Part shown: one piece after another, positions 3,841 to 25,929 of the stretch
Layout: each line of letters starts with the position of its first letter
Numbering within the stretch: the first letter of the stretch is position 1
Position numbers and translations under genes: made by a program
Notes under the pieces: model-generated
The model's input: the letters and a program-made list of their open reading frames with translations, nothing else
Databases searched by the model: none
What the model was told of the DNA's origin: nothing
NCBI GenBank assembly: GCA_030706385.1
Contig: JAUZOQ010000005.1
Span: forward strand, 1 to 64,000
Length of the DNA stretch: 64,000 nucleotides
Reading direction: 5' to 3'
Source of the DNA: Bacteroidota bacterium
Lineage (GTDB): Bacteria > Bacteroidota > Ignavibacteria > Palsa-1295

Positions 3841-6290
3841 TACTTGATGATCCTATCGATGATCTCTTTCTGCCAGGGCTCCCAGGTTTTGGACTTGTAG
3901 TATGCCATCATCATATTCCGGAATTGTGTCTGGCCGTAATATTTCGTAAGGATTCCGTTGGCCGATCCGGCGAGGCGGTTATTCGTGCTCAAGAGCGCAT
4001 TGATGAGATTGGCAAGAAGATCGTTATCGAAATAGTTGAGACGCGACAGAGCATCCATTGCTGTCTGACGAGTGATGAACTCATAGGAAACACTGACGTA
4101 ATCGACAAGCTGCTTCAGCGCCGCAGCGTCTTGCGTCGATGATGCCTTGATCTCCAGCCATTTGATATGGACCTTATGCGACATGCCGTCTTCATCTTTC
4201 GTCTTATCCAGATATTGCGCAGTATTCTGCGGGAAGCTTTCACATAATTTATCCAGAGCCGTCGATACCATATTGTAGGACGAATCTTTCAGCAGCATTG
4301 CAACATCAGGCTCGATATCCTGCGGAATGAAGCGATATGCATTCAGCGCAGCGCTACGAACATCAAGCGTCGTATCCTTCAAGGCACGGCGAATGATTGC
4401 GCGCGACTCCGGGGTATTATCGGCTGCCAACTGCCCGACTATCTCGCCGCGAATTGCCTGATACGTTTCTTTATTATAGACCTGGATCAACGCATCGCGC
4501 TTCTGCTCCATCGGTACTGAATCGGTCCTGAACGAAACGACAGCATCGTACCGGTCCAGCATCTTCGGCGCTCCGAGTGCCTGCGCTTTCAGCTCACTGA
4601 ACGGCTTCTTGAAATTTATTTTCTTGACAACTTCATCGCCCGGATCGAAGAGAACGAAGGCGATCTGCTTCGAACTCGGATTTGGAACGGAGACGATATG
4701 GCGCTCCTTCTCGATCCATTCACGTTTGGAATCCATCGATCCATCCGTGTAATGCACTTCGAAGACGATTGGCATTTTAAAGAGTCGTGTCAAGTCATCG
4801 ATATGCTGAGTCTGTGCGACATCGATCTCCGTTTCATGTCCGGAGCCTTTAGCAATGTCCTGATAGCTTACAGTATACTCCGGCACACCGCCGCGGTAGA
4901 GCCATTGCTCGAAAAACCAATCGGGGGAAAGGCCGAGCGTATCCTGAAATGCTTGGTAGAGATCGTTCGTCTCTACATTCGAGTACATGTGATGCGAGAG
5001 GTAGTAATGATAGACATGGCGCATTTCTTCTTCGCCAAATGTATAGAGCATCATGCCGATGACGGCCGAGCCGCCGGGATAAATTCGTGAGCCGCCTGCT
5101 TTCGTATGCACGATCGGGAAGCGATCACCATCGTTCGCAGCAACCATAGCATTATGCTCGCCGCGGCGATTCCACTCGTAGGCATCTTCGCCATAGACTT
5201 CACGAGTAAAGAGCTTCGGGAAGAATGTTGCATGCGATTCGTGCAGCCACATGTTCGGACCGTTACGGATCGTGATCAGATCGCCGAACCATTGATGCGT
5301 GAGCTCATGCACATCGACTCCGAAGTATCCGCGGTCAAGCGTTCCGCGCGCATCGTTCAAAAAGAAATCGCCGTAGATCGTAGCCGTCGTATTCTCCATG
5401 GCGCCATAGATGAAATCCTGCACAGGAATATTCGAATACGATTCCCAGGGATAGGGAATCCCCGTCCACTTCGCAACGAAGTCAATACATTCAGTTGCGT
5501 ACTTATAAGTGGGCTGAACGTATTCGGGATGTTCCGGATAGTAGTAGAGATTCACCGGCACACCTGCTTTTGTCTTACGCTGTTCGATCTCGTACTTGCC
5601 GATGCCGAGCATGACAAGATAAGCGGAGTGGCGATGCGTCATTCTGTAATGCCATGTCTTCGTGCCATCGCCATTATCCTTTTCGGAAAGTTTTGTACCG
5701 TTGGAAAGTACTTTATACTCTTTATCGAATTTTACGATAGTTTCGGTGATCAGCTTATCGTCCCAATCGTCATAGCACGGAATCCAGTAACGGTTATCGG
5801 TGCCTTCTCCTTGTGTCCAGATCTGTTTACGGCTCAAGTTGCGCGGGTCGTTCCAGCCGATAAAGTAAATGCCCTTGCGCGGAGTCGCTTCGTAGACGAA
5901 GGTGATGCTATCGTTCTCGCCCCATGAAAGCGCCTTACCCGGAAACACGGTAACACCCGAAGCATCGGTAGTGAATTGCAGCGGCTTGCCGTTGAGCATT
6001 GCATCTTTGATCTTGATACCGGGGCCATCGAAGAAGATCGAATCGACATGGCTGCGCAGCGGAGTAAAGTAATGCGTCACTTTTCCGTAGACAATACCTT
6101 TCGGGCAATCGAACGAGACTTCGATCTTCATGCGAAGCATATCGACGGGATGCTCACGCGGAGCACGTTCGGCAGGATCGACGAGATGCGTTTCCTGATA
6201 CAGGATCGGCGGCTGTGCCGAAGCGGGATGAGTAAATGAGAGAAGAATAATTGCTGCAAGAAACGATACTGAACGAAGAGAGTGGCGCAT
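3840..6290 (-). CDS. M1 family metallopeptidase (aminopeptidase N-like) with C-terminal helical-repeat region
   Basis: GAMEN motif (YGAMENTTATIYGD) and HELTHQWFGD zinc motif; signal peptide. Confidence 0.93.
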   Translation of the reverse strand: MRHSLRSVSFLAAIILLSFTHPASAQPPILYQETHLVDPAERAPREHPVDMLRMKIEVSFDCPKGIVYGKVTHYFTPLRSHVDSIFFDGPGIKIKDAMLNGKPLQFTTDASGVTVFPGKALSWGENDSITFVYEATPRKGIYFIGWNDPRNLSRKQIWTQGEGTDNRYWIPCYDDWDDKLITETIVKFDKEYKVLSNGTKLSEKDNGDGTKTWHYRMTHRHSAYLVMLGIGKYEIEQRKTKAGVPVNLYYYPEHPEYVQPTYKYATECIDFVAKWTGIPYPWESYSNIPVQDFIYGAMENTTATIYGDFFLNDARGTLDRGYFGVDVHELTHQWFGDLITIRNGPNMWLHESHATFFPKLFTREVYGEDAYEWNRRGEHNAMVAANDGDRFPIVHTKAGGSRIYPGGSAVIGMMLYTFGEEEMRHVYHYYLSHHMYSNVETNDLYQAFQDTLGLSPDWFFEQWLYRGGVPEYTVSYQDIAKGSGHETEIDVAQTQHIDDLTRLFKMPIVFEVHYTDGSMDSKREWIEKERHIVSVPNPSSKQIAFVLFDPGDEVVKKINFKKPFSELKAQALGAPKMLDRYDAVVSFRTDSVPMEQKRDALIQVYNKETYQAIRGEIVGQLAADNTPESRAIIRRALKDTTLDVRSAALNAYRFIPQDIEPDVAMLLKDSSYNMVSTALDKLCESFPQNTAQYLDKTKDEDGMSHKVHIKWLEIKASSTQDAAALKQLVDYVSVSYEFITRQTAMDALSRLNYFDNDLLANLINALLSTNNRLAGSANGILTKYYGQTQFRNMMMAYYKSKTWEPWQKEIIDRIIK

Positions 6291-18868: not shown

Positions 18869-19426
18869 ATGATATTAACCGATAAAGATATACTCGAAGC
18901 GATCGACGCGAAAACGATCGTCATTGAACCCTACCGCCGCGACTGTCTTGGATCCAATTCGTACGATGTTCATCTCGGAGCGACTCTGGCGATTTACAAG
19001 CCACAAGTCCTTGATGCACGCGAGCATAATGAGATCGAGTATTTCACCATTCCTCCTGAAGGTTACGTGCTGCGCACGGATACTCTCTATCTGGGAGTTA
19101 CCGAAGAGTATACGGAAACGCATGCGCATGTGCCATTTCTTGAAGGCAAATCCAGCGTTGGAAGACTTGGAATTGATATCCATGCTACTGCAGGAAAAGG
19201 CGATGTCGGATTCTGCAATACGTGGACTCTGGAAATATCGGTGAAGCAGCCTGTTCGCATTTATGCCGGCATGCCGATCGGCCAGCTTATTTATTTCGAA
19301 GTCAAAGGAGATTGCCTCGTCCCGTACGCTACGAAAGTTAACGCAAAGTATAATACGAGAACGGTGAAGCCTGTAGAATCCATGATGTATATGAACTACG
19401 ACACTGCGGCAGGGAAGTGGAAGTAG
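18869..19426 (+). CDS. dcd: dCTP deaminase
   Basis: MILTDKDILEAI...DCLGSNSYDVHLG...LEGKSSVGRLGIDIHATAGKGDVGFCNTWTLEI; start moved to the internal ATG. Confidence 0.93.
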   Translation: MILTDKDILEAIDAKTIVIEPYRRDCLGSNSYDVHLGATLAIYKPQVLDAREHNEIEYFTIPPEGYVLRTDTLYLGVTEEYTETHAHVPFLEGKSSVGRLGIDIHATAGKGDVGFCNTWTLEISVKQPVRIYAGMPIGQLIYFEVKGDCLVPYATKVNAKYNTRTVKPVESMMYMNYDTAAGKWK

Positions 19427-19588
19427 GATTTTATGTTCGTATATTCGAAGTTAGGTAGTAGGGCTATTTCTCAAAGAGCGTCCTGAACGGATACAATCAT
19501 GCTAAGCAACTGAACGATCCGGTCTCATACCGAGTCCATAATGAGCATGGTCTAAAATCCTGAAGCGTGTTTTTTAAAATCGAGAATC

Positions 19589-19885
19589 ATGGATATAAGC
19601 AAAGACAGCAGCTTTTATCGGAAAACGGATTCGACAACGGTTTCGGTACTTACGCACATGCGTACAGAGCATGATCCGAGCTTGACCGACTACATGAAGG
19701 CGTTATCGGATTTTGTCTGGCCGGTAGTGGTCGTTTTTCTCGCTCTGAAATTTAGGAGCGAAATTGTCGGGTTATTGAAACGAATTACTAAGGCAAAGGT
19801 ATCCAATACGGAATTCGAATTCGAGAATTCCGTCAACAATGCCGCCGAGGAAATCAAGGAACTTCGTGCTGTAAAACCGGTTTAA
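19589..19885 (+). CDS. small single-TM protein; in frame with the next ORF
   Basis: SDFVWPVVVVFLALKFRSEIVGLLKRITKAKVSNTEFEFE. Confidence 0.65.
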   Translation: MDISKDSSFYRKTDSTTVSVLTHMRTEHDPSLTDYMKALSDFVWPVVVVFLALKFRSEIVGLLKRITKAKVSNTEFEFENSVNNAAEEIKELRAVKPV

Positions 19886-19894
19886 TTTAATAGT

Positions 19895-20329
19895 ATGTCA
19901 ACTCATTTTACTGCCGATAAGGACCCCGAGGTGCTCCTACCGACAAATCCGGTCGCTGCTATTGTGGAAGCTTTCAATGGGTTAGAGGAATCCCTGCGCA
20001 ACCTTGCAGAATTGTACGGCTATCCGAATGCTGAACCAGCGAAGGGAATCTCGGCAATCCAATTCCTTTACAACACTAAGATTCTTAGTGCGTCCGATGG
20101 GAAAGCTATCGAGATCTTGAGAAATTTACGTAATCAGGCACTCAGTGCTAAGACCGGGGTGGACTCTAAGTCTGCCCGAAAATACATCGATTTGGTTGCA
20201 GAGGAAAAGAATCTCATCGATAATAACGTCACGCTTCGCAAACTTTATGACGAGGCAATGCCTATCGAAAGTGCTGTCTCTGCCGCTCCGACAGCTACGA
20301 AGACGAAACCGCCACGAATGACGGCCTAG
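19895..20329 (+). CDS. HEPN/DUF4145-like protein
   Basis: NPVAAIVEAFNGLEESLRNLAELYG...ISAIQFLYNTKILSASDGKAIEILRNLRNQA; HEPN-like helical pattern with degenerate RN-motif, by eye. Confidence 0.5.
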   Translation: MSTHFTADKDPEVLLPTNPVAAIVEAFNGLEESLRNLAELYGYPNAEPAKGISAIQFLYNTKILSASDGKAIEILRNLRNQALSAKTGVDSKSARKYIDLVAEEKNLIDNNVTLRKLYDEAMPIESAVSAAPTATKTKPPRMTA

Positions 20330-20473
20330 TTGGTAGTTTGGAAGTTGCCGGTTTGGTAGTTGGTCCCTGGCTGGAATCCCTCGATGTCTCTCGTTTCCCA
20401 TACGCCTATACACCCACTCCCATTCCCCCATCCTCGAACGCAGTCGTTCCTTTTCAAGTTATCATAACTCGAT

Positions 20474-22039
20474 ATGCAACGCATCGCCCTCGCTATTGTC
20501 CTTCTTCTTACCTGCACCGCTTTAGCGCGCGGGCAGAGCACATTCGAGAAAATGGTCCGATTCGATAGCAGCGGTCTTATTCAGGGAGATGCCGTAATTC
20601 AAACTTCTGACGGAGGCTACCTCACCAGCGGCGGAGTAGGGTTTAACGATAAAGCGAGCAATATTCCATGCCTGATCAAATTCGATGCGAGCGGAAATGT
20701 TCAATGGGTTCGATCGGTCAGCAATTTTCTAGTCTTCGAAATAAATGCACTCGCACGGTTCTCAGATAATTATTTTTATGCTGTCGGGCATTACGAAACA
20801 GGCTCTGTGAACGGGACATTCATTATGAAGTTCGATGCCGACGGTAATATTTTCTGGATACGAACGCATGCTGGCATGCCGCTTGGCACGATGCCGCTGA
20901 CTGTCTACAAGGATGGAAGCTGCATCATTGGCGGAGAGGTTGCATATAGGCCGTATCTCATGCGGGTGGATTCGAACGGAGCGTTGCTATGGATCAATAA
21001 TTTTACTAAGGCTTCCCTCTTCAACTTATCGATGGCTCAGGTAGGCGATAGCAGTTTTGTTTTGGCAGGATATTTTGCTGGAGCTGTTAAAAGAAACCCC
21101 ATAGTACTAAGCATCATGAAGATCGATCTATCCGGACACCTGGTATGGCTGAAATATATTTCGGCACAGGTAGATATCCAGGGATTATCCATCTGCGCGA
21201 CTCAGGATAGGGGTTATGCTGTTTGCGGAAGAAGCAACTTCGGAAATATCTTCCTGGCAAAATTCAACTCATCGGATTCGCTCATGTGGACTGAGGAGAT
21301 CCTTGCCCTCGATAATTCTGTTGGCGAATCGGCAATGGCCGAGGCGCGCAATGGAGATCTGCTTCTTGTTTACTTCTCCGAGATACAAACCGGTGAAGCG
21401 ATATTCGCGCGAACGGATAAAGATGGAGATGTAAAGTCTGTTAAAGGCCTGAGTAACTCTCAGTTGTTTTTTACCAATTCGATCATTCGCGCAAACGATG
21501 GCGGATTTGTTCTTGTCGGAAGGAGAGGAGATTCTCTTACGAATGACGGCCTGATCCTCTTGAAGGTCGATTCCCTCGGCGATGGATGCAAGATGGCACC
21601 TGCATTATTCACCTCTCATCCCTTGGGCGAACTTCAACTTGATTCTCTACAGGATATGTTTGGCGGCACGATCGATTCGATGGATCTTGCATTCGATACG
21701 TACACGGATTTCAAGGAAACCGATCTTTGTAACACTTCTTCCGTCGAAGAACCGCATAACGATCTCCAAACTTCCGACGACAAACTTCGTCTTTCACCAA
21801 ATCCCCTCCGCCCCGGTGAAGAGTTGAATGTTCATCTCAATGAAGGGTTAACTACGGGAAACTACGAGCTCAATGTTATCGATCTGCTCGGCAATACACT
21901 CTTAAGACAGAAGATCGCAATCTCCGGAGAACTGCAAGATATTCCTCTCTCACTTCCATACCTTCCCTCAGGCGTATACGTTCTCGAACTGCGGAATGAA
22001 GCAGGTGCAAGTTACCATGCGAAGTTTGTAAGTGAGTGA
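20474..22039 (+). CDS. secreted repeat protein with T9SS C-terminal sorting domain
   Basis: repeated SDGGYL/RDGGFVLVG-type motifs; C-term RLSPNPLRPGEELNVHLNEGLTTGNYELNVIDLLGNTLLRQ. Confidence 0.85.
   Translation: MQRIALAIVLLLTCTALARGQSTFEKMVRFDSSGLIQGDAVIQTSDGGYLTSGGVGFNDKASNIPCLIKFDASGNVQWVRSVSNFLVFEINALARFSDNYFYAVGHYETGSVNGTFIMKFDADGNIFWIRTHAGMPLGTMPLTVYKDGSCIIGGEVAYRPYLMRVDSNGALLWINNFTKASLFNLSMAQVGDSSFVLAGYFAGAVKRNPIVLSIMKIDLSGHLVWLKYISAQVDIQGLSICATQDRGYAVCGRSNFGNIFLAKFNSSDSLMWTEEILALDNSVGESAMAEARNGDLLLVYFSEIQTGEAIFARTDKDGDVKSVKGLSNSQLFFTNSIIRANDGGFVLVGRRGDSLTNDGLILLKVDSLGDGCKMAPALFTSHPLGELQLDSLQDMFGGTIDSMDLAFDTYTDFKETDLCNTSSVEEPHNDLQTSDDKLRLSPNPLRPGEELNVHLNEGLTTGNYELNVIDLLGNTLLRQKIAISGELQDIPLSLPYLPSGVYVLELRNEAGASYHAKFVSE
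21827..22039 (+). repeat. C-terminal domain DNA repeat, copy 1
   Basis: ~210 bp near-identical to 23527-23740 (about a dozen differences by eye). Confidence 0.85.
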
Positions 22040-22111
22040 GCATCGAGTTCGCCTCACTTCAAACGCCACTTCGTTCGAACCCACCGTCTCGCATTTAGGT
22101 TGTCTTGATTC

Positions 22112-23740
22112 ATGAAACAGATCATCCTCTTTGTCCTTCCAATTCTTGCCATAGCTGTTGCCTCATCATTTGGGCAAGGCATATTTGAGAAGCAGATCGA
22201 TCTCGGCTATACGACTTTCCCGACATCCATAACTCAATCAACAGATGGGAGTTTTTATATAAGCGGATACTATCTTGTCGATAGTAATGCTATCCCGGGT
22301 ACTTCGTACTATCCCTTCATCACAAAGACGTCGGAGCTAGGAGAGATATCGTGGACGAAAAGATTAACCGTTTATTCTCAAGACAAGAATATACTGATCC
22401 CCGTCCATGACGGAGGCGTCGTCATGGCTTCGAACTTGTTCCGATTGTCACTCATTCGATTTGATACAGAAGGCGCAATCGAAAAGACAGTCGCTCTTAA
22501 TCTGTCGGGGCTTAGTCGTGAAGGTCTTTCAGTATGCGAAACATTCGATCATCATTACATTTTTGCTTCGACGAGCTATGGAAGCTCTCTACTCTCGAAG
22601 ATCGATAGCCTCGGTCAACAGGAATGGACCGTTGCGCTGACAAAACCATATGGTAATAAAGTAGTTGGCGTTATCCAGTCTTCGGATAGCAACTATATCC
22701 TCTGCTCAATTGTCGAAAACCCTTCACCTGATAATCGGATCGTTCTCGTAAAAATTTCGCCGGCAGGGGCCATCCTTTGGAATACGATCGATCTGACGCT
22801 CGGGTTTTTTTCAAAAATCAATGCGTTGACAAGAACCTCCGACGGCGGCTTCGCTATTTGTGGCTTACTCCTGTCTGCGGGTGCTAAGACCTTCGTTGCA
22901 AAATTCAACACCGATGGCAAGCTTCTTTGGCATACAACTATCGATGCTTTTTCCGACCAGCAGGGCATTGATATTGTTGAAAAGACAGATGGAGATCTTG
23001 CCTTAGTGGGTACACTCACAACATCTGGAGATGCTCTTGAGCAACCGGCCAACGGAAAGATGGTAGTATCCATTATTGCAAGTGACGGGAGTATCAAGAG
23101 TTTACAAACTTTAGATCTGCTTCCAAATTATCCATGTACTGGAGTTTCTGTCACGTCCACAAAAGATAACGGCATAGTGATTTTGGGTTCGGTGGTGAAA
23201 ACGCCGATCGACCGATCCCAGGGAACGCATGCTTATCCGCAGACTGGAATGGTCTTCATCAAAGTCAAGGAGAATGCAGGTGTGAATTGTTTTCTTGACT
23301 ACAACCTCTTTATATCGCAGACGGGGAAGGTCGTAAGTACTGATACTACAGTCGAATCGACAAACTACGACTTCCAAACCGAAGCAAAAGATCTTGATAC
23401 CGTAATTTCTGTCCCTTTCAGGGACTATGATATATGCTCGCATTATCTCGTCCCAGAATCCGAGCTTCATAATTCGGATGCCAGACTTCACATTTCACCC
23501 AGCCCACTCCGAGCAGGTGAAGCGCTGAATGTTCATCTCAATGAAGGGTTAACTACGGGAAACTACGAGCTCAATGTTACCGATCTGCTCGGCAATACAC
23601 TCTTAAGACAGAAGATCGCAATCTCCGGAGAAGTGCAAGATATTCATCTCTCTCTTTCCAATCTCGTCTCAGGCGTATACGTTCTCGAACTGCGGAATGA
23701 AGCAGGTGCAAGTTACCATGCGAAGTTTGTGAGGGAGTGA
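22112..23740 (+). CDS. secreted repeat protein with T9SS C-terminal sorting domain (paralog of 20474..22039)
   Basis: same architecture; C-term HISPSPLRAGEALNVHLNEGLTTGNYELNVTDLLGNTLLRQ nearly identical at DNA level. Confidence 0.85.
   Translation: MKQIILFVLPILAIAVASSFGQGIFEKQIDLGYTTFPTSITQSTDGSFYISGYYLVDSNAIPGTSYYPFITKTSELGEISWTKRLTVYSQDKNILIPVHDGGVVMASNLFRLSLIRFDTEGAIEKTVALNLSGLSREGLSVCETFDHHYIFASTSYGSSLLSKIDSLGQQEWTVALTKPYGNKVVGVIQSSDSNYILCSIVENPSPDNRIVLVKISPAGAILWNTIDLTLGFFSKINALTRTSDGGFAICGLLLSAGAKTFVAKFNTDGKLLWHTTIDAFSDQQGIDIVEKTDGDLALVGTLTTSGDALEQPANGKMVVSIIASDGSIKSLQTLDLLPNYPCTGVSVTSTKDNGIVILGSVVKTPIDRSQGTHAYPQTGMVFIKVKENAGVNCFLDYNLFISQTGKVVSTDTTVESTNYDFQTEAKDLDTVISVPFRDYDICSHYLVPESELHNSDARLHISPSPLRAGEALNVHLNEGLTTGNYELNVTDLLGNTLLRQKIAISGEVQDIHLSLSNLVSGVYVLELRNEAGASYHAKFVRE
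23527..23740 (+). repeat. C-terminal domain DNA repeat, copy 2
   Basis: see 21827-22039. Confidence 0.85.
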
Positions 23741-23750
23741 GTAGTACCGT

Positions 23751-24971
23751 TTACTCCCTCACGATTTTTCGGGTAATTACTTCATTCTGCGCTTCGAATC
23801 TTGCGAAGTATGTCCCTGGTGGCAACGTGGAGAGATCAAGCGTGAAATCCGCCGCCCCGGAATTCGAGAGTTCACGTACAGTCTCACCGAGTACATTTGT
23901 AATTATGATGTGAAGCGTATTCGTCGGAGGGTTATGGACGGTGATATCTCCAATGGTCGGATTAGGAGAAAGAGAGATGGTAATATCGGGTTGAGAATGT
24001 TCCGGTACGTCACTAGCTCCAAAATCGGAGAGAGCTCGGCGCCACACAATATCAGTGCTGGCAAACAGATTCGTGCCGGCCACTCCAAGGGCGCTCACAT
24101 AGGGGCTTGGCGATACGGTCAATCCGGAGTTAACTGCAGTCCAGCTTGCTCCGGTGTTCGAAGTCATATATACACCGCTATCAATTCCTACGAAGAGATT
24201 GAGCCCGTTTACTGCAAAGGCATGGATTTCGGCCGGTGGCAGGCCATTACCGACTCTCGTCCACATTGCGCCGGCGTTAGTAGTTAGGTACACTCCTCCG
24301 GTATCCGGCCAACCAAAAGTCCCTGCAAAGATTTCATTTCCGATGACTGCAAAAGCACGAATGATCGTATCGGATAATCCATTGTTGACCTTCGTCCAGT
24401 TCGAGCCCATATCATTCGAGAGAAAAACGCCGCCATAGGTGCCGGCAAATATATTCGTCCCGCTCACAGCAAGCGCTCCGACACTCGTGTTCGTTAATCC
24501 ATTATTTACTGTTTTCCAATTAATGCCGTTATTGGTAGAGAGAATAACACCTGCGCTCGTCCCGGCAAAGAGATTCGGACCACTGATAGCAAAGGCATTG
24601 ACGGTGGTGCCTGAAGGTAACCCGCTAGTGACGGTTTTCCAGTTCGTACCGCCGTTGGTCGAGCTAAAAATGCCGTCTCCTGTTCCTGCAAAAAGCTTCG
24701 TGCCGCTTTCGACAATGGCATAGACAACAGTGGCCCCGATGCTGCCGCTCAGGCCATTGTTCGCATTGTTCCATGTCGTGCCGCTATCACTTGTGCGAAC
24801 GATGCCTGCGCCGAAGAATGTCCCTGCAAAGAGATACTTGCCACTAGCCGTCAGAGTCAGTATCGAGCCGCTATTAGGCCCCGATGTTTGAATCCATTGG
24901 CTCCATAAATTGGACGTGCTTCCGACTGCGAAGAAAGAAATCCAAGCGATGATGAGAACTCTTGTTTTCAT
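23751..24971 (-). CDS. secreted beta-propeller-like (YCF48/BNR-like repeats) protein with T9SS C-terminal domain
   Basis: tandem ~42-aa units AFAVSGxNLFAGTxxGVxLSTNNGxxWxxVNNGL; C-term ISLSPNPTIGDITVHNPPTNTLHIIITNVLGETVREL; start moved to MKTRVLIIAW. Confidence 0.87.
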   Translation of the reverse strand: MKTRVLIIAWISFFAVGSTSNLWSQWIQTSGPNSGSILTLTASGKYLFAGTFFGAGIVRTSDSGTTWNNANNGLSGSIGATVVYAIVESGTKLFAGTGDGIFSSTNGGTNWKTVTSGLPSGTTVNAFAISGPNLFAGTSAGVILSTNNGINWKTVNNGLTNTSVGALAVSGTNIFAGTYGGVFLSNDMGSNWTKVNNGLSDTIIRAFAVIGNEIFAGTFGWPDTGGVYLTTNAGAMWTRVGNGLPPAEIHAFAVNGLNLFVGIDSGVYMTSNTGASWTAVNSGLTVSPSPYVSALGVAGTNLFASTDIVWRRALSDFGASDVPEHSQPDITISLSPNPTIGDITVHNPPTNTLHIIITNVLGETVRELSNSGAADFTLDLSTLPPGTYFARFEAQNEVITRKIVRE

Positions 24972-25127
24972 TGTAATTATTCCTAAATTGTGTTTCGTGT
25001 AGCTAAGCGAATCAAAGAACCATAGTGAAATCCGTGCACCGGAAGATGTAACCTCACTGGCAGCAAAGAAATTCAAGGCTTTTGTGGAGAGATATGTGAC
25101 ATCGAGTTGAGAAGGAGAGGGATGGTT

Positions 25128-25287
25128 TTAAAAGTCTCCTTCCTTTTCAAGGAAGGAGATTTAGTGGATGGTTATTCATAAGATTAATCCTTTTGGAAGC
25201 GGTGTTTGCCCTTTCCCAAAAGGATTTATTTCTATTAATAACCTCACCCCGGCCCTCTCCTTGAAAAGGAGAGGGGGCACTTTATTC
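25128..25287. repeat. palindromic (MITE/REP-like) element with internal hairpins
   Basis: perfect stems TCTCCTTCCTT/AAGGAAGGAGA (25135-25159), AATCCTTTTGG/CCAAAAGGATT (25186-25226), CCCTCTCCTT/AAGGAGAGGG (25253-25275); two ~65-bp arms are imperfect inverted copies of each other. Confidence 0.8.
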
Positions 25288-25829
25288 TACTCCGGCAGGC
25301 TTCGAATATCTCGTAGGCGCTCGACTTGATCTCGCAGCACTCGTCGATTATGCATGGGATTTGTTACGGAGGGATCGGGGACCCAATCGAGTAATCCCTT
25401 ATCCATTGCTCGCGCAATGCGCATTCTGTTAGGCTGCGAGTTTTCGCCAAAGGCAAGCGCCGCTGCGTTCGAGATGGTGATCAGCTCGTCGACGGATATC
25501 CACCAACGCGCTCGCGAGGCAACGACTCCGATGTCGGTATCCCAGAAGCCGTCATAGAACGCTGGCGCCGGTTGCATCGAGTTAGAGAGAAGCAGATCGA
25601 GAATTCTCTTCAGTGCACCTTCGACTCGCGCCATCATTACAGCAGATCGTGTGATCTCTCCATTGGCAACGGCAATGAGTAATTTCATATCATCGGCGAT
25701 CGTGAGCTTCTCGCTTGCTTCAGAATCCTCCGTACTCGGTTTCTTGCCAAGCGCAGATTCGAATTTTTCGTAACGCTTCGTTACAAGATTTAAGATTTCC
25801 GTCGTCAGTTTTTCTTTAAATAGAGCCAT
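25287..25829 (-). CDS. hypothetical protein, possible DNA-binding C-terminus
   Basis: 180-aa ORF with normal codon usage; C-term ARAMDKGLLDWVPDPSVTNPMHNRRVLRDQVERLRDI. Confidence 0.6.
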   Translation of the reverse strand: MALFKEKLTTEILNLVTKRYEKFESALGKKPSTEDSEASEKLTIADDMKLLIAVANGEITRSAVMMARVEGALKRILDLLLSNSMQPAPAFYDGFWDTDIGVVASRARWWISVDELITISNAAALAFGENSQPNRMRIARAMDKGLLDWVPDPSVTNPMHNRRVLRDQVERLRDIRSLPE

Positions 25830-25855
25830 ACAAGTAGATTATTTATATCGATGGC

Positions 25856-25869
25856 AACTAACGTTAGTT
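25856..25869. promoter_or_regulatory. perfect 14-bp palindrome upstream of 25287..25829
   Basis: AACTAACGTTAGTT. Confidence 0.4.
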
Positions 25870-25929
25870 AAGTTAGCTACGGTTCCTATTATTTGGACGA
25901 TATAGGCTTAAGGGAAGCAGAGGCTCAAC

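Follow-up and report, generated by a model that had tools for sequence, protein, structure and literature searches.

The window, that is, the whole stretch of 64,000 nucleotides that was analysed, holds two short reading frames on its forward strand, ORF1 and ORF2, and the question raised by this locus is whether they are two genes or the halves of one, and what their products could still do. As the preliminary description had correctly read, both lie in one frame; a single TAA (19883-19885) ends the first, and after three more codons comes the ATG of the second. The translation of 19502-20341 runs as ...ELRAVKPV*FNSMSTHFTADKDP..., with that single stop inside. The features of the locus are the following:

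19589..19885, forward strand: ORF1, the N-terminal half of a WP-TM/HEPN protein, comprising the transmembrane (TM) anchor and the juxtamembrane helix (N-half profile match, E=3e-15)
19682..19750, forward strand: predicted single TM helix, residues 32-54 (AlphaFold2, pLDDT 84-94 here)
19718-19723, forward strand: invariant Trp-Pro within the TM helix (WP in 40/40 relatives)
19754..19870, forward strand: predicted juxtamembrane helix, residues 56-94, with conserved K..E..F (AlphaFold2 and relatives)
19883..19885, forward strand: in-frame TAA splitting the gene, within a variable linker (linker pLDDT about 60; 0/40 relatives with a stop there)
19895..20329, forward strand: ORF2, the C-terminal half, a DUF4145-like HEPN domain (C-half profile match, E=5e-10)
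19949..20257, forward strand: predicted HEPN helices, residues 121-223 of the fused model (AlphaFold2; top Foldseek matches are HEPN proteins)
20129..20146, forward strand: degenerate RNxxxH motif, here RNQALS (in relatives, R in 40/40, N in 39/40 and H in 39/40)

ORF2 stays open for 144 codons (P of about 8e-4 at the local base composition), and the coding signal of both reading frames is confined to the frame that they share, where it lies on the low side of the long genes of the window; a below-average signal of this kind would be as expected for an acquired gene. The true start codon of ORF1 is uncertain, because 43 residues precede the WP when translation begins at 19589 and 11-16 do so in the relatives; the alternative in-frame ATGs at 19658 and 19694 would leave 20 and 8 residues, respectively. 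At the other end, ORF2 carries a C-terminal tail of ~30 residues that has no counterpart in the relatives. Its ATG, 9 bases past the TAA, stands in an AT-rich context with no Shine-Dalgarno sequence, and a Shine-Dalgarno-like site is likewise missing in 26 of the 30 longest ORFs of the window.

Homology to a published membrane HEPN family

Judged by homology, ORF1 and ORF2 make up a single homologue of a family already known, whose members are single chains: a short N-terminal region is followed by a TM helix marked by an invariant Trp-Pro and by a juxtamembrane helix, and a linker then leads to a DUF4145-like HEPN domain. This architecture, a WP-signature TM segment joined to a DUF4145-like HEPN domain, has been described by Anantharaman et al. 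(2013, Biol Direct 8:15; PMC3710099). The entry point was given by weak matches to two single chains from other genomes of the class (L006 and L013), which have the same domain order and an LRxLRNxxxH motif. A family profile was built from 25 relatives, with the window excluded, and 4000 shuffles served as controls. With this profile, ORF1 matches the N half (E=3e-15; best shuffle 0.009), ORF2 matches the C half (E=5e-10; best shuffle 0.86), and the read-through protein is matched over its whole length (E=4.6e-26; best shuffle 0.064). The stop is also spanned by phrog_18019, a phage family of single-chain proteins of 185 aa, in which profile positions 4-181 correspond to read-through residues 32-210 (E=4.6e-6). 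ORF1 has the WP-containing TM segment of the family (FVWPVVVVFLALKF, helix 32-54) and ORF2 its HEPN domain, as given by the two half matches; the single polypeptide is what the TAA takes away, versus 40/40 intact relatives that are single-chain. Because its modules sit on two polypeptides, the gene is filed as a split derivative and not as a standard member. Several other candidates were set aside: the best single-sequence matches in the class (L002 and L005) are antisense to cytochrome oxidase genes and were taken as chance, as was a match to a MotB-like protein (L003), and Flp1_like, TIGR00661 and similar weak family matches fall far under the cut-offs.

The likeness to the published family (PMC3710099) covers the N-terminal TM segment with its strictly conserved Trp-Pro, the juxtamembrane helix and the C-terminal HEPN domain with LRxLRN, whereas the window pair differs in the in-frame TAA, a His to Ser change, a longer N-terminus and the extra C-terminal tail. 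The single-chain TM/juxtamembrane plus DUF4145-like HEPN architecture to which the preliminary description had referred does exist, is published (PMC3710099) and was found in 40 intact relatives. Both fused homologues and a HEPN/DUF4145 relationship, on which that description had staked its reading, were found.

The DUF4145 identity that had been proposed for the second half holds by way of the family profile, the relatives and the structure, and it fails at the level of the Pfam model itself. Searches with ORF2 alone came up empty in Pfam and among PDB sequences, plasmids and viral contigs, and neither ORF2 nor the read-through protein matched Pfam DUF4145 (PF13643) at E<=10. The relatives come closer: L006 scores 22.7 bits against a DUF4145 gathering score of 23.1 bits, and 20/27 aligned relatives match DUF4145 at E<=0.01. 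Since there is no direct Pfam match, the DUF4145 link of ORF2 goes through these relatives and through the predicted structure. When the read-through protein was modelled with AlphaFold2 from an alignment of 27 sequences (mean pLDDT 82), the model showed the TM helix (32-54) and the juxtamembrane helix (56-94), then a linker of low confidence in which the stop falls (codon 99), and finally a HEPN-like bundle of four helices (121-142, 153-162, 168-186 and 193-223). ORF2 modelled alone reached a pLDDT of 85, and the first nine Foldseek matches of this model in the PDB were all HEPN-type (including 1wwp, 2hsb, HepT, 5yep and 2q00), with probabilities of 0.94-1.00 and E-values of only about 0.2. 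The predicted HEPN fold of ORF2 rests on sequence homology together with these consistent, individually non-significant structural matches. The HEPN domain of intact members would probably lie on the inner face of the membrane.

The RNxxxH motif itself is degenerate. At 20144-20146 the window has AGT (Ser) where the family has His, so that the terminal His is absent, as had been pointed out before, from a motif that reads RNQALS here and keeps the His in 39/40 relatives; the only other relative without it is that of Desulfosarcina (L040). To turn His into this Ser, no fewer than two bases must change if the codon was CAT, and three if it was CAC, so the substitution is not a single-base error. 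The Rx4-6H pattern of catalytic HEPN RNases is not found in RNQALS. The missing His would still allow membership of the HEPN superfamily; what it does exclude, at the level of motif, is a predicted RNase, and metal-independent RNA cleavage should be lost in the window copy. The Rx4-6H motif is kept in about 80% of DUF4145, and non-catalytic HEPN domains with proposed binding roles, such as those of MtlR and Swt1, have been described (PMC3710099). Among the options listed in the preliminary description, an inactive HEPN domain is well supported by this substitution.

Relatives and other broken copies

The conservation counts come from 40 aligned intact single-chain relatives, which are carried by plasmids, by phages, in integron-like cassettes or on chromosomes from several phyla, with hosts in the Gammaproteobacteria, Betaproteobacteria, Bacteroidota, Gemmatimonadales, Planctomycetes (Scalindua) and others. 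Phage-borne relatives occur in Escherichia phage D6 (P1-like) and Pseudomonas phage UFJF_PfPro. Of the 14 columns in which the relatives agree at 90% or more, 11 are intact in the window copy and three have changed (Ser to Asn, Trp to Phe and His to Ser). K70, E75 and F78, conserved in 36-37 of the 40 relatives, are all kept in ORF1, and past the stop the conserved P, A, E, R, N and A are still present in ORF2.

Three further sets of proteins are among the closest known comparisons for the window pair. The phage proteins of phrog_18019, which have no assigned function and include gp103 of Escherichia phage D6 (YP_009914701.1), share its architecture and differ in that the D6 protein is a single chain of 185 aa with an intact RNEAAH in a P1-like phage. 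The homologues of Stygiobacter sp. RIFOXYC2_FULL_38_25 (L056, on the same contig as G039:C8) and of a second genome (L013, G134) belong to the same class, have the same domain order and are 23-27% identical in a three-sequence alignment; unlike the window pair, they are single chains with intact RNQAVH and RNEVVH motifs. Going by its relatives, the window falls in the class that includes Stygiobacter. Finally, the WP-TM plus receiver proteins (PMC3710099) have the WP-TM module in common with the window gene and carry a receiver domain in place of HEPN.

None of the 40 intact relatives is split, and across 396 genomes of the phylum, 369 of the Marinomonas class and 13 of the order, the window copy alone matched over the full length while having its linker interrupted by a stop. 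Another locus, reported with one TAA (L087), was rejected as a second split case since this TAA is its natural terminator, and two half-length matches, one with the HEPN half only (L090) and one with the WP-TM half only (L093), were rejected as similar split genes because no other half was detectable alongside. The latter are stand-alone genes in two gammaproteobacterial-class genomes, a WP-TM protein of about 90 aa (L093:1501-1740) and a HEPN half (L090:1501-1780).

Other damaged copies were seen in passing. In Methylococcaceae NSM2-1, a family member (L058:5001-5540) has a TGA in its juxtamembrane part and a frameshift further on. In Noviherbaspirillum autotrophicum, the HEPN half only is present in two copies (L059:5001-5284 and L061:2068-2351), with identical stop-rich sequence upstream on two contigs, as if a truncated copy had been duplicated or repeated by the assembly. 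Another example is a WP-TM plus receiver protein in a one-contig genome of the same class (L026:1474-2151, G032:C1), MSDVSNLLVGLSSLIWPVIIFYLII*FSGPIKD..., with an in-frame TGA just past the TM helix, which makes it a second WP-TM gene of the class with a stop between anchor and effector. A separate observation concerns the sequence that follows some family genes: an attC-like sequence with complementary GCCTAAC...GTTAGGC ends lies 3' of one (L055, about 5570-5670), and attC-like sequences with TAAC/TAACAA starts lie after 5552 in L046 and after the gene in L042, L044 and L045, suggesting that several family members may be integron cassettes.

Genomic location, proposed decay and rival explanations

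The pair is absent from the 12 other genomes of its order. In the window it lies within the interval from dcd to a VOC-like gene (19426-25929), and its neighbours are dcd and T9SS-type proteins, with no known defence genes. In the nearest genome (G059, same genus; dcd 95% identical), an HTH-like gene and T9SS-type proteins lie between dcd and the VOC-like gene, and in another (G020) the two genes adjoin with nothing between. Going by these comparisons, the interval is a variable accessory site, which fits an acquired accessory gene. Scans for repeats, tRNA, promoters and terminators around the pair gave nothing above chance, and no integron attC was apparent 3' of ORF2. Directly past ORF2, at 20325-20375, there are short irregular repeats (TTGGTAGTTTGG / TTTGGTAGTTGG) that fall under the thresholds of the repeat finder, and further on, at 20474-22039 and 22112-23740, two adjacent paralogous proteins have near-identical T9SS-type C-terminal sorting domains.

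The best explanation, to which we give roughly an even chance, is that the pair is a horizontally acquired member of the family that has lost its RNase chemistry, has been split and is now in early decay. The ancestor would have been an intact WP-TM plus DUF4145-like HEPN gene gained by horizontal transfer. According to the 2013 proposal, the TM segment acts as the sensor of a stimulus and so governs the degradation of RNA at the membrane (PMC3710099), so that in intact members a membrane signal would change the HEPN domain and release RNase activity through RNxxxH; no experimental study of the TM plus HEPN subgroup was found in the literature searched, and a role as a membrane-tethered, stimulus-controlled RNase is plausible for the intact members. 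In the window copy, the change from His to Ser would end RNA cleavage and the nonsense codon in the flexible linker would sever the anchor from the HEPN domain, in whichever order the two changes may have come, and ORF1 would then yield a membrane stub, while translation of ORF2, should there be any, would begin at the ATG past the stop. Decay is supported by the broken relatives elsewhere (L058, L059/L061 and the WP-TM-receiver gene L026 with its in-frame TGA); it is weakened by ORF2 itself, which is open and keeps its conserved positions and coding-like codon use, a retention that should exceed that of an old pseudogene. Because ORF2 is open and conserved and its ATG lies close to the TAA in an AT-rich context, which suits reinitiation, it may be translated and under selection.

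This last point leads to a functional fission, in which coupled reinitiation at 19895 on one mRNA would yield, next to the membrane stub, a HEPN protein that is soluble and non-catalytic and whose role may be to bind RNA or to form dimers with HEPN partners that are active. The open, coding-like ORF2, the conserved columns kept across the gene, the nearness of the ATG, the position of the stop, which falls precisely in the low-confidence linker and is flanked by two parts modelled with confidence, and the precedent of MtlR and Swt1 (PMC3710099) all speak for it. However, none of the intact relatives is split, and where a gap occurs in other cases it goes with truncation, a shift or a rearrangement; besides, no second HEPN partner of the family was found in the genome, and no close relative among the genomes of the order has the same split to show selection. 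We regard such a fission as possible and somewhat doubtful, and its fuller form, a selected natural fission whose soluble pseudo-HEPN product acts as a non-catalytic RNA-binding or dominant-negative partner, as unlikely. The suggestion that the two ORFs form a cassette in its own right finds no support, since no relative is split at the same place.

It is more improbable still that the TAA is an error of sequencing, assembly or binning, in which case the true gene would encode one unbroken chain whose motif is degenerate. The assembly has 161 contigs, one base change could create the TAA and all intact relatives are single-chain; against this, stop-creating substitution errors are rare in a consensus, and the independent His to Ser change makes the sequence divergent in its own right.

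The two remaining readings seem to us very improbable. Regulated readthrough, an option of the preliminary description that would make some full-length membrane-bound protein, could draw on the shared frame, the short gap and a read-through model that folds like the family, but no positive evidence was found for it: the stop is a TAA followed by T, a strong termination context, and readthrough is neither seen nor needed in any relative, with no family member conserving a stop here. Equally hard to credit is a defence or stress module in which an active membrane-bound HEPN RNase would operate in the form of two separate chains. The P1-like phage (D6), the P2-like prophage, the conjugative plasmids and the integron-like cassettes that carry relatives point that way, as do the neighbours of some of them (CBASS-type cyclase, KwaB, AbiTii, IetA and TIR), for which, as no control set was used, enrichment is not claimed; however, the window copy lacks the catalytic His, its anchor is severed, its own neighbours are of other kinds and the read-through protein had no match in PADLOC. 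The defence or stress module proposed earlier is not supported for this pair, and the settings of its relatives suggest it only indirectly.

With an acquired gene in decay as the preferred reading, a gene pair that could not be annotated can now be assigned to a published membrane HEPN family, of which it is a version either broken or non-catalytic. The window copy is mainly an example of the degradation of an accessory gene, and the relatives brought together around it, from phage D6, a P2-like prophage, conjugative plasmids and integron-like cassettes, open the intact family to testing.
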